From Thermomicrobiales bacterium (lineage in GTDB: Bacteria; Chloroflexota; Chloroflexia; Thermomicrobiales; UBA6265): DNA of 64,000 nucleotides. Location: positions 558,001-622,000 of the forward strand of contig JAHBVL010000001.1 in NCBI GenBank assembly GCA_019637585.1, read 5' to 3'. The notes under the pieces were generated by a model. The model ran no database searches. It was not told the origin of the DNA and was given only the letters and a program-made list of their open reading frames with translations. Positions 2,317-6,214 of the stretch are shown here, in pieces (within the stretch, counting starts at the first letter, position 1; each line of letters begins with the position of its first letter). The position numbers and the translations under genes were made by a program.

Positions 2317-2465
2317 AGTCCGGAGTCCGGAGTCCGGAGTCCGGAGTCCGAAGTCCGAAGTCCGCAAGTCGTACCCTACTGCCAGTTACCAGTTACCAGT
2401 TACCAGTTACCAGTTACCAGTTGCCAGTTGCCAATCACCCAATTCCTATTTCCTATTGCCCTTTG
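2317..2465. repeat. Heptamer word arrays (AGTCCGG)n and (CCAGTTA)n
   Basis: Two consecutive short-unit tandem arrays lie between ceramidase-like genes 2 and 3. The first is about seven units of AGTCCGG with late variants AGTCCGA. The second is about seven units of CCAGTTA ending in CCAGTTG. They are followed by words such as TTTCCTA and TTGCCC that reach the stop end of the next gene. The same words recur at 10239, 18577, 22636 and 39398. Confidence 0.9.
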
Positions 2466-3859
2466 CCCATTGCCTTCAACAACCCCACCGTCCCCTCCAC
2501 CATCACGCCGGCCGCTTCCGGCGTGAATGGCGAGGTTTCCACTTCATATCCGAGGAGTGGATAGGCATCCGGCATCGGGATGTAGCCAGCCCAGCCGCTG
2601 GTGTAGCCGCCGAACCAGGTGTACGGAAATGGCGACTGCTCTTTGATCTGAAGCCCGATCTCGACGAACGGCTCTCCCTGTGTACCGGCGAACACGACCG
2701 GGCCAATCTGCAGCAGACTGACTTCGACCGGTGTTTCGGTTTTGCCTGCGTAGAGTTGCGATCTGGTCAGCCGCATATTGAGGCGTTTGGTCACAAAGGT
2801 CGCCGCCTCGACTTCCGCCGCCGGCGCTCCCGCATCACGAAGCGCTTGCAGCGTGGCCTCGGCCTCGCGGACCTTGGCTTGAGCATCGGCGACCGACTCA
2901 TGCTCGACCAGGGGCAGGGTGACATAGTCGACGAGCATCTTCACCATTGGCGCAGGCTCCTCGACCTCGTCGTATTCCCACCGGCCAAGGGGCGCGCCGG
3001 ACTCCCAGGTTCGCTCGTGATGATAGGTCCGAGCTGGGATATCGATGCTGTGGTACACCCGCGCCGCCTCGAAACCGACCAGCATGCCTAATCGTTCGGG
3101 CACCGAAACGTCATCGGTGAATCCCTCGTATCCGGGACCGACGTCACCCGTTGCCCCCTGAACGAAGAGGCAGGTCGAATTCGTCAGCAGCTCGACAACG
3201 CGTTTGAAGTGCCCGGGCCAATCAGCGCTGAGCAGGCGGTTGCTGGGACCGAGTGTGGTCGGGTGCATCGTGTAGCCGGCCACGGTCGCCAGCGGCTCGC
3301 CATCGATTGTGTCGATGCGCACCACCAGCACATCGGGGTCGATGACGCCTCCCGGGTTGACGCCAGTGACCAAGCGCCCCTGCGGGTTCTTTTCGCGCCG
3401 GTTGATCGCCACCTGGCTCGACCCGAGCCCGACGCCAATCCGTGCCTCGACCATCGAATTGCGGGCAGCCAGCGCGGCGCCCGACGCATACTCCGGCAAC
3501 TGTCGATACCAGGTCTGGAGCGCTTCCAGACCATCCTTGATCCAGTCCCACGAGCTGGGTGGAGGACCGGCGTGGTTGTGCGTCACGCTGACGCGAACAT
3601 TCGCCGCCGGAATGCCGAGCGCCTGTCCAACCCGTTCCTGGATGATGGCCGTTTCTTCGCTACTGATGATCACCAGGTCGAATTCGCACCAGGCGACGGT
3701 TGTCGTCCCGTCGTCGATCACCAGCGCGGTGACATTGAGTGGTTGGTCGACGCCATCCGGCTGAATATGCGTCTGAGCGCCCCAGCCGGCGTGCGGCGCC
3801 GTGAGTGGCGGCGTAATGTCGACCCGGCTGATTCCGGCCCGGAATGTCGATTTCCTCAT
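2453..3859 (-). CDS. Neutral ceramidase-like N-domain protein (third tandem copy)
   Basis: A 468-residue protein when started at ATG 3859 (MRKSTFRAGISRV), which aligns with both paralogues; the frame remains open upstream to 4000 but that extension has no family similarity. Motifs are THNHAGPP (93-100), GYTMHPTTLGP (about 195-205) and GDVGPG (238-243), the last being glycine where the ceramidase nucleophile serine is expected. It is first in the minus-strand set, with about 150 bp of heptamer repeats before the next copy. No signal peptide is seen. Like its neighbours it is probably a zinc-dependent amide or ester hydrolase of unknown substrate. Confidence 0.85.
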   Translation of the reverse strand: MRKSTFRAGISRVDITPPLTAPHAGWGAQTHIQPDGVDQPLNVTALVIDDGTTTVAWCEFDLVIISSEETAIIQERVGQALGIPAANVRVSVTHNHAGPPPSSWDWIKDGLEALQTWYRQLPEYASGAALAARNSMVEARIGVGLGSSQVAINRREKNPQGRLVTGVNPGGVIDPDVLVVRIDTIDGEPLATVAGYTMHPTTLGPSNRLLSADWPGHFKRVVELLTNSTCLFVQGATGDVGPGYEGFTDDVSVPERLGMLVGFEAARVYHSIDIPARTYHHERTWESGAPLGRWEYDEVEEPAPMVKMLVDYVTLPLVEHESVADAQAKVREAEATLQALRDAGAPAAEVEAATFVTKRLNMRLTRSQLYAGKTETPVEVSLLQIGPVVFAGTQGEPFVEIGLQIKEQSPFPYTWFGGYTSGWAGYIPMPDAYPLLGYEVETSPFTPEAAGVMVEGTVGLLKAMGKGQ

Positions 3860-4288
3860 CTTCTCGTCGGTCCTTCTCGCACGGCGGATTCGGCCTTCAT
3901 TCTGCCCGGCATGGTACTGCCACTGGCCCGATTTCGCCGGGGGAGCGACCGTCGATTGAAACCGGGCGACTGGAGGAGATTTGCACCGGGAAATGACCAT
4001 TTGAAGAGAGGGGCTTCCGGGGTGATCCCGGTGAACCTCAAGATGAAAGCCTGGAGGGAAGCGATGATTTCATCGTGATTCAATGCGGGGATGGATTGAT
4101 CGAGATACTGGAGTGGGATCCGGGGCCCGCGGTCATCGATGCATGATTGCGTCAGACGCAACGAACACGACGCTATTGCTCCCATAGTAGCGCCTGAAGC
4201 TATTAAATCATGCCGAATGAGGGTATAATTGCGCCACACGCTATTATGATCGAGCGAACGCTTACTAAGTTGCGCCAGGCGAGCACTC
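3860..4288. promoter_or_regulatory. Divergent intergenic region with AT-rich promoter-like core
   Basis: This 429-bp gap separates the ceramidase-like set (minus) from fic (plus); no gene is supported. It is AT-rich at 4170-4260, and a perfect TATAAT at 4224-4229 sits 60 bp upstream of the fic start. No good -35 hexamer is found at 16-18 bp, so the promoter call is tentative. Confidence 0.4.
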
Positions 4289-5458
4289 ATGAGAAGCACA
4301 TCCAACCGCGCCGGTAGGTACATCCGGCAGCCCCAGGGCTATCAGGCCTTCATTCCAAACCCTCTTCCGCCCGATCCGCGCGTTCAGATCACGGAGGAAC
4401 TTGTCGAGCTGCTCCTGAGCGCCCAGAGCTGGCTGTCGCGCCTGGACGGCGCGATCGAGTCGGTCCCTGAGCCGGGGCGATTCGTCCGCATGTACGTCCG
4501 CCGTGAAGCAGTGCTCTCCAGCCAGATCGAAGGCACCCTCAGCACGGTGACCGACCTGCTTGCTTCCGAGGCGAAGGTATCCGGACTGACGCTACCGGCC
4601 GATGTCCGCGAAGTCTCGAACTATGTCGCTGCCATGGAGCACGGCATTCAACTGCTCGAGCAGTTGCCTATCTCAGTGCGGCTGATCAGGGAAATCCACC
4701 GTGTGCTCCTCGCTGGAGTAGCGCCGGCGAATCTGACGCCCGGTGAGCTTCGCACATCACAGAACTGGATAGGCGCTCCGGGCGCTTCACTGCGGGACGC
4801 GATCTTTGTGCCCCCACCAGCGCAGCAGGTTCCCGAGTCGTTGGGCGATCTCGAGCGCTTCCTTCACCGCCGGGACCGGATGCCGCTGTTGGTCCGGCTG
4901 GCGATCGCGCATGTCCAGTTTGAGATGATCCATCCGTTTCTGGATGGCAATGGACGCGTTGGCCGGCTGCTCATCACGCTCCACCTGATCGAGCAGGGAG
5001 TATTGCGGCAGCCAGTTCTCTACATCTCTGCATTCTTCCGGCGGAATCAGGTCGAGTACTACAGGCGACTCCGGGGGGTTCAGGAGGAAGGGGACTGGGA
5101 AGCCTGGATCTCCTTCATGCTGGAAGGCATCGCAGAAACCGGGCGGAACGCCGAAGCGACTGCACGTCAGGTCCAGCGCTTGCGGGAAAAACATCTCAGA
5201 CTCATCGTCCAGACATTCGACCGGGGCGCCGAGAGCGCGCTTACCGTGCTCGATGACCTTTACCGCGATCCCATCGTCTCAGTGGCCCGGGTTCGCGAGT
5301 TGACGAACCTCACCGTCGCGCCAGCGAATCGAATGGTGTCGCGGATGGTCGATGCAGGAATCCTCGTCGAGATCACTGGTCAGCGCCGCAACCGGCAGTT
5401 CGCCTACGAGCCCTACATCCAGCTTTTCGACGACCCAGCCCCGGATGATTTGGCATGA
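4289..5458 (+). CDS. Fic family protein
   Basis: A 389-residue Fic protein. Residues 215-226 read HPFLDGNGRVGR, a complete Fic active-site loop with the catalytic His and the phosphate-binding Asn/Gly/Arg. Near the N-terminus, S77-x3-E81-G82 fits the class II inhibitory helix (S/T-xxx-E-G/N) that blocks ATP binding, so activity is probably self-restrained. The N-terminal region resembles the Fic/DOC N-domain and the C-terminal ~80 residues look like a winged helix (NLTVAPANRMVSRMVDAGIL). The family mostly transfers AMP from ATP to hydroxyl side chains; the target here is unknown. It is a stand-alone gene, with the rhodanese-CBS gene starting 48 bp downstream on the same strand. Confidence 0.9.
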   Translation: MRSTSNRAGRYIRQPQGYQAFIPNPLPPDPRVQITEELVELLLSAQSWLSRLDGAIESVPEPGRFVRMYVRREAVLSSQIEGTLSTVTDLLASEAKVSGLTLPADVREVSNYVAAMEHGIQLLEQLPISVRLIREIHRVLLAGVAPANLTPGELRTSQNWIGAPGASLRDAIFVPPPAQQVPESLGDLERFLHRRDRMPLLVRLAIAHVQFEMIHPFLDGNGRVGRLLITLHLIEQGVLRQPVLYISAFFRRNQVEYYRRLRGVQEEGDWEAWISFMLEGIAETGRNAEATARQVQRLREKHLRLIVQTFDRGAESALTVLDDLYRDPIVSVARVRELTNLTVAPANRMVSRMVDAGILVEITGQRRNRQFAYEPYIQLFDDPAPDDLA

Positions 5459-5506
5459 TTCTTGCCGCGATCTGCTTGTTGCATCGCGTTCAGGGAAACG
5501 ACGACC

Positions 5507-6214
5507 ATGCCGAGAACGATCGACCGACACGAAGTACAGCGGCTCATCCGCGAAGAAGGGGCGACGCTGATCGACGCGTTGCCCCGCGCTGACTATGACG
5601 CCGAGCACGTCGCCGGTGCGATCAGTCTGCCGATCAAGGAGCTGAACGCCCGGACCACAGCGCATCTCAGCAAGCACGATCCCATGATCGTCTATTGCTG
5701 GGATATGCAATGAGACATCAGTCCGCGGGCCGCGTGGCGGCTCGAGAGTCTGGGATTCACCCGCGTCTTTGACTATGCCGCAGGGAAGATGGATTGGCTT
5801 GCGTTCGATCTGCCGACCGCCGGTCCGGACGCTGCCGTGCCACGCGCCAGCGACGTTCTGCGCACCGATGTCCCTACCTGCCGTCTCGATGAGACCATCG
5901 GCGAGATCCTGGCAAGAATCGAAGGAAGCGGCTGGACCGTCTGCGGCGTGATCAACAGCGAGCGCGTGCTGCTCGGCATGCTGCGTGGGAAGTGCTGGGG
6001 TGAACCGTCCGAGGCTGTTGCCGGCGACGTCATGCGCGCAGGCCCATCGACCATCCGGCCGAACGAAGACCTCGCCGCCGTGACGGAACGCATGCAAAAG
6101 CGCAATGTCTCCTGTCTCTTCGTGACCAGCTCGGATGGTCGACTCGTTGGTCTCCTTCGCCGAAACGACGCCGAAACCGCGCTTGGAGCCCGCAACGAGT
6201 CGAACACATCCTGA
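5507..6214 (+). CDS. Rhodanese-CBS protein with in-frame TGA: candidate selenoprotein (or nonsense-mutated gene)
   Basis: One continuous frame is interrupted only by TGA at 5711-5713. Before it (residues 1-68) is a rhodanese-like domain ending IVYCWDMQ; after it the same frame continues DISPRAAWRLESLG, then GKMDW and two CBS motifs (about 105-225). With readthrough the product is 235 residues. Related single-domain rhodaneses, as recalled, read YC-x4-C-xx-S-xxAA, so the TGA falls on the second cysteine: Cys64-x4-[UGA]69. This is the pattern of a Sec/Cys pair. A 6-bp hairpin with a loop beginning in G lies 12 nt after the TGA. ATG 5507 is preceded by AGGGA. Alternatives are a Cys-to-stop mutation giving a pseudogene, or a sequencing error. 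No selenocysteine machinery is visible in this window. Confidence 0.6.
5726..5744 (+). promoter_or_regulatory. SECIS-like hairpin downstream of the TGA
   Basis: CGGGCC (5726-5731) pairs with GGCTCG (5739-5744), giving six pairs including one G-T, around the 7-nt loop GCGTGGC. The loop starts 18 nt after the TGA and its first base is G. This agrees with the bacterial SECIS rules as recalled (UGA-to-loop distance about 16-37 nt, a G in the first two loop bases). The DNA is GC-rich, so a chance hairpin is quite possible. Confidence 0.4.

Follow-up and report, generated by a model that had tools for sequence, protein, structure and literature searches.

A rhodanese-CBS family with a very likely selenocysteine codon in the rhodanese loop, found in a Thermomicrobiales bacterium and in relatives from two bacterial phyla

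The window analyzed here is a stretch of 64,000 nucleotides from a Thermomicrobiales bacterium (phylum Chloroflexota; contig JAHBVL010000001.1 of assembly GCA_019637585.1, positions 558,001 to 622,000). Positions 5507-6214 on the plus strand form a single frame that starts with ATG, passes through TGA at 5711-5713, and ends with TGA at 6212-6214, without a frameshift or any further stop. The features of this locus are as follows.

5489 to 5506, plus strand: likely leader, purine-rich CAGGGAAA ahead of the ATG at 5507 (sequence inspection only).
5507 to 6214, plus strand: inferred selenoprotein gene encoding a rhodanese domain and two CBS domains, 235 residues with Sec69 on readthrough (open frame, Pfam domains, and AlphaFold2 model).
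5696 to 5713, plus strand: rhodanese active loop from Cys64 (5696-5698) to the inferred Sec69 (5711-5713) (residue conservation; rhodanese fold match to 3NHV).
5711 to 5713, plus strand: TGA codon of residue 69, inferred selenocysteine (TGA in 78, Cys in 16, and Ser in one of 95 distinct homologues).
5727 to 5743, plus strand: SECIS hairpin GGGCCGC-GUG-GCGGCUC, starting 13 nt past the TGA (fold; frozen codons and a compensatory change, in UGA forms only; SECIS rules).
5855 to 6172, plus strand: CBS pair, about residues 117-222 (PF00571 in two stretches; fold matches to CBS pairs).

The joined product matched the Pfam rhodanese model (PF00581) at residues 8-99 (E 1e-12; 48.9 bits against a gathering score of 22.2) and the CBS model (PF00571) in two stretches, the better at residues 172-222 (E 1e-14; 54.6 bits). 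Its loop reads Y-C64-W-D-M-Q-[UGA69]-D-I-S-P-R-A-A, i.e., C-x4-U-xxS. A reading made from the sequence alone, before this analysis, had described one frame broken only by the TGA, whose halves join without a frameshift into a rhodanese-CBS protein, and a C-x4-[UGA]-xxSPRAA motif; both descriptions held, the motif being read directly in the window sequence. It had also stated that related rhodaneses have C-x4-C here, and this held as well, both in the YCWGPAC loop of 3NHV and in 16 homologues of the same architecture with Cys69.

A Fic-family gene (Fic_N and Fic domains; 4289-5458, plus strand) lies upstream on the same strand; 48 bases separate its end from the ATG, and the two genes may be co-transcribed. 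On the downstream side lie convergent genes for an arsenite-methyltransferase-like (arsM-like) methyltransferase, a regulator of the arsR type, and a luciferase-like monooxygenase. Farther upstream, two long tandem frames on the minus strand (890-2302 and 2453-4000) have translations that look like paralogues of each other.

To determine what occupies residue 69 in relatives, we read the codon directly from the DNA of the homologues. Among the 95 distinct homologues read, it was TGA in 78, TGC or TGT in 16, and TCA (Ser) in one, and a chance position of the TGA is excluded by the recurrence of TGA at this identical codon. Homologues at E 1e-20 or better were found in 39 of 400 genomes of the window's phylum, with TGA in all listed matches but one; the lone TGA-free match (genome G158) proved to be a one-base frameshift directly after the same TGA. 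In Actinomycetota, 43 of 396 genomes had a homologue, nearly all with TGA. The Cys forms came from Streptomyces, Acidobacteria, two actinobacterial assemblies, and Nonomuraea. A scan of genome contigs whose query carried a back-translated Cys at residue 69 yielded nearly all of them, and its results served for comparison with the UGA forms rather than as a census. Since that scan could find only Cys, the 78:16 ratio of UGA to Cys understates UGA.

Several Actinobacteria have two or three UGA copies per genome (G592, with L104, L185, and L190; G614, G560, G625, G627, G667, and G555). The single Ser form (L175, on contig C20 of G472) keeps Cys64 and has no SECIS hairpin, and the same genome holds a UGA copy (L182). 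Among viral contigs, no exact match to the UGA-plus-hairpin pattern was found, and phage records gave only distant rhodanese matches. A rapidly built maximum-likelihood tree needed five changes to account for Sec, Cys, and Ser at this residue, compared with 16 in shuffles. Groups with Cys were interspersed among those with Sec, suggesting that Sec was replaced by Cys more than once; this remains only a possibility, as deep support was weak and the root is unknown.

The UGA could alternatively be a nonsense mutation, a sequencing error, or the mark of a pseudogene. In favor of this explanation, some copies are damaged: that in G309 has an extra in-frame TGA near residue 28, and that in G158 has the frameshift mentioned above. 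Against it, the same codon is TGA in 78 distinct homologues from many independent genomes, close pairs show purifying selection past the UGA, and a conserved hairpin is specific to the UGA forms. This explanation is thus all but excluded, and at the level of the family it is refuted. Damaged copies in two genomes from the order and class to which the window's organism belongs (L150, about 3222-3854; L174, about 869-1530) show an extra in-frame TGA and a one-base frameshift beside the SECIS hairpin.

The hairpin (consensus GRGCCGC-GUG-GCGGCUC) begins 13 nt past the UGA, inside the coding sequence. It has a 3-nt loop beginning with G, a spacing of 20 nt between the UGA and the loop, and a minimum free energy of -21 kcal/mol. 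Published limits for bacterial SECIS elements cover loop length, the loop G, spacing, and energy (PMC13188914), and all four are met.

Codon usage beneath the stem separates the two groups. The codons for A75, A76, R78, and L79 were GCC, GCG, CGG, and CTC in 33 of 33 UGA forms, while those of the Cys forms varied freely. At Arg74, the 78 UGA forms used only CGA, CGG, AGA, or AGG and never CGC or CGU, which is what stem pairing requires; CGC occurred in seven of the 16 Cys forms. The stem was formed in 98% of the cells scored for UGA forms versus 65% for Cys forms, and in at most 65% when it was slid along the sequence. All UGA forms kept the six-pair stem, with A-U/G-U variation at one pair. 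At another pair, a clade of seven carried a double change from C-G to U-A that forces Arg78 to Gln; this compensatory change likely represents one event on the tree. RNAalifold recovered the hairpin from the UGA forms and not from the Cys forms. Compared with shuffled versions of this GC-rich DNA, the window's hairpin by itself showed no added stability (z -0.35). Because single-sequence stability is unremarkable in such DNA, the case for a SECIS element rests on conservation and covariation.

We also considered two separate, translationally coupled genes, in which translation of a short rhodanese fragment stops at the UGA and that of a CBS protein begins just past it. Two Pseudonocardia plasmid records are annotated in this way, and the second codon past the UGA is ATG in 51 of the 78 UGA forms. 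However, that codon is CTC, ATC, ATT, CTT, or GTC in 17 of the 78, and in 12 of the 16 Cys forms, whose frame is unbroken, it encodes Leu. The cut would also land within the rhodanese loop, with invariant residues on either side, and the SECIS pattern would be left unexplained. We therefore rejected coupled genes as very unlikely: the supposed start is often no start codon, and the Cys forms read straight through.

Database annotation divides the gene in two in both Pseudonocardia plasmids and gives only the CBS part in a Rubrobacter marinus plasmid. We regard these UGA-form records (L030, 4995-5663; L032, 438-1103; L031, about 4881-5600; from Pseudonocardia autotrophica, P. broussonetiae, and R. 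marinus) as misannotated.

Conservation extends across the UGA. Between closely related UGA forms compared in pairs, the part downstream of this codon had a dN/dS of about 0.1-0.5, indicating purifying selection; distant pairs were saturated and left out. Near-invariant residues flank the codon on both sides (H34, Y63, C64, D66, D70, R74, W97, G157, R184, G211, and G215). Cys64, with which the active loop begins and which takes the place of the canonical rhodanese catalytic cysteine, was present in 78 of 78 UGA forms and, among the 16 Cys forms, in 15. In one acidobacterial Cys form (L075), Cys64 is replaced by Ser and Cys69 is retained, a hint that residue 69 matters more.

AlphaFold2 was run on the joined protein with Cys in place of Sec; the input alignment contained the window protein together with the Cys forms. 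The model had a mean pLDDT of 90.1 and placed residue 69 in a loop just ahead of a helix starting at residue 71. The best solved fold match of the rhodanese half was BH2092 (PDB 3NHV), and the C-terminal half matched CBS pairs such as MJ0922 and AcuB with AMP, ADP, or ATP.

We then examined the machinery for selenocysteine incorporation. In the genome that contains the window, assembled in 33 contigs and about 97% complete, a single tRNA-Sec scored above the Rfam cut-off; its anticodon is UCA. The same genome has selA, selB, and selD above curated cut-offs in uninterrupted frames. UGA is otherwise an ordinary stop in this genome, as at the ends of the selenoprotein gene itself and of the Fic gene. 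As a point against selenocysteine decoding, no second selenoprotein was established in the window's genome; formate dehydrogenase was tried and rejected, as the matched parts of the Fdh-alpha-like matches had no in-frame stop.

Across the window's phylum, tRNA-Sec was detected in 304 of 400 genomes and in 34 of 38 UGA carriers (P 0.03, ignoring shared ancestry). The enrichment is modest because the trait is common there. Five UGA carriers of this phylum initially lacked a tRNA-Sec; G317 gave a match barely above the cut-off, which is unverified, and inspection of the remaining four turned up tRNA-Ser alone. In Actinomycetota, selB (E 1e-70) was found in 35 of 42 UGA carriers versus 177 of 354 other genomes (P 2e-5, again ignoring shared ancestry), and three of the seven carriers without selB had a clear tRNA-Sec. 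Counted against selenocysteine decoding are seven UGA carriers, all draft assemblies, without a clear tRNA-Sec or selB; incomplete assemblies may account for these remaining gaps. Cys forms were present in genomes both with and without tRNA-Sec.

The UGA might instead be read through with another residue by a near-cognate Trp or Cys tRNA, or serve as a regulated switch that yields either a short or a long product, without dedicated Sec insertion. Sequence does not exclude this, and Sec genes were not found in some draft assemblies that carry the UGA. Because termination is always in competition with selenocysteine decoding, a certain amount of short product is likely to be made. Against such readthrough, the alternative residue in 16 relatives is Cys, the usual partner of Sec, the SECIS rules fit, and selB is enriched in UGA carriers. 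We judge this explanation very unlikely.

Taken together, these results make it very likely (probability roughly 0.95) that UGA69 is decoded as selenocysteine. The evidence is that of sequence, without a measurement of selenium or of a peptide. The sequence-only reading had inferred selenocysteine and had named what would count against it: absence of selA, selB, selC, and selD, no Cys at this position in homologues, a read error, or decay of the part past the TGA. All four genes are present, residue 69 is Cys or UGA in 94 of 95 homologues, sequencing error is excluded at the family level by the recurrence of UGA in many independent genomes, and the part past the UGA is under purifying selection in close pairs. 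Every check run came out in favor of selenocysteine.

We compared the protein with known systems. A 2026 catalogue of prokaryotic selenoproteins (PMC13188914) lists 119 families and subfamilies, including five rhodanese forms and no CBS protein. No NCBIfam release 20.0 model recognizes the rhodanese-CBS family, and no rhodanese-CBS selenoprotein was found in the open-licence literature searched. Rhodanese-like selenoprotein form 1 (WP_010941598.1, UxxS; PMC13188914, Table 1) is likewise a rhodanese with Sec, and the U-D-I-S of the window protein fits UxxS, a likeness in a short motif only; for form 1 the catalogue names a rhodanese domain alone. TsoB (NF045694, rhodanese/DsbD fusion-like) is also a rhodanese fusion with Sec and has the same spacing of redox residues. 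However, TsoB has UxxxxU with two Sec and a DsbD-like partner domain, while the window protein has CxxxxU and scored 24 bits against a cut-off of 805, so it is not a member. NF041203, the rhodanese-related (seleno)protein form 3, shares a rhodanese domain with a Cys/Sec pair, but the pair is CxU rather than C-x4-U, and the window protein (24.2 bits against a cut-off of 115) is not a member of this family either.

Among proteins with Cys, BH2092 of Bacillus halodurans (3NHV) shows 30% identity with the rhodanese half and has a Cys pair at matching positions (YCWGPAC); it is a single rhodanese domain without CBS and has Cys, not Sec, at the second position. The Cys-form rhodanese-CBS proteins of Streptomyces, Acidobacteria, and Nonomuraea have the same architecture and 36-45% full-length identity, but their codon 69 is TGC or TGT, and they lack a conserved hairpin.

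UGA69 is very probably decoded by the organism's own SelA/SelB/tRNA-Sec/SelD system, directed by the SECIS hairpin 13 nt downstream. For the function of the protein we propose the following as the most likely mechanism, all of which is inferred. Cys64 or Sec69 would take up sulfane sulfur or another oxidant, and the other residue of the pair would resolve it to give a Cys64-Sec69 selenenylsulfide, which a cellular thiol system would re-reduce. The CBS pair may tune this activity by binding an adenosine ligand; the ligand is inferred solely from fold similarity to nucleotide-bound AcuB. A CBS-controlled redox pair acting on sulfane sulfur or persulfides could as easily prove wrong as right, and the sulfurtransferase activity is an inference too. 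Across about 40 neighborhoods, no conserved partner gene pointed to a substrate. The whole explanation, which combines Sec decoding, a rhodanese Cys64-x4-Sec69 loop, and a CBS module, is very likely, by a margin slightly narrower than that of the decoding, with the mechanism held only at the lower strength just given. Of the unusual redox or chalcogen-handling protein expected earlier, the sequence shows the Cys64/Sec69 pair in a rhodanese loop and the CBS fusion; the chemistry is inferred only.

A different function, defense against arsenic or organomercury rather than a general role in sulfur or redox metabolism, was suggested by neighboring genes. The arsM-like and arsR-like genes adjoin the gene in the window, a MerR regulator and an alkylmercury lyase adjoin it in Pseudonocardia autotrophica, and the surroundings of the gene in Rubrobacter marinus include ArsR and methyltransferase genes. 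However, in about 40 further neighborhoods no family occurred in more than five loci, and ars and mer genes were absent among the recurrent ones. We consider a role in arsenic or mercury defense unlikely and rejected an arsenic operon, as the arsM-like and arsR-like neighbors of the window did not recur across these loci. The arsenic connection hinted at in the sequence-only reading was its only part left without support. Separately, a DUF3179-like protein was found near the gene in four loci (L153, L157, L164, and L166); DUF3179 is a selenoprotein family in the 2026 catalogue.

The preferred reading remains a selenocysteine-containing rhodanese-CBS protein. With at least 78 distinct relatives in two bacterial phyla that carry the UGA and the hairpin, it looks like an overlooked selenoprotein family, and a selenoprotein with a CBS module is an architecture absent from the 119 families of the catalogue. 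We consider it likely that this is an overlooked family of rhodanese selenoproteins with a new architecture and Sec position; priority is uncertain, as the form 1 sequence was not compared and only open-licence literature was searched. In a bolder formulation, also likely, the family is uncatalogued, is common in Actinomycetota and the window's phylum, and joins Sec chemistry in a rhodanese loop to a nucleotide-sensing CBS module that probably controls it, with Sec prevalent and several changes to Cys.

The gene occurs in about one in ten sampled genomes of each of these two large phyla, yet database records split or truncate it, so that proteins of the family are recorded only as halves. Because members of the family carry Sec, Cys, or Ser at a single active-site residue, the three can be compared in naturally occurring proteins. 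Its bacterial SECIS element is unusually well conserved (77 distinct sequences) and could be used to train SECIS and selenoprotein finders. Finally, the family may help explain why the Sec system is retained in many genomes of both phyla.
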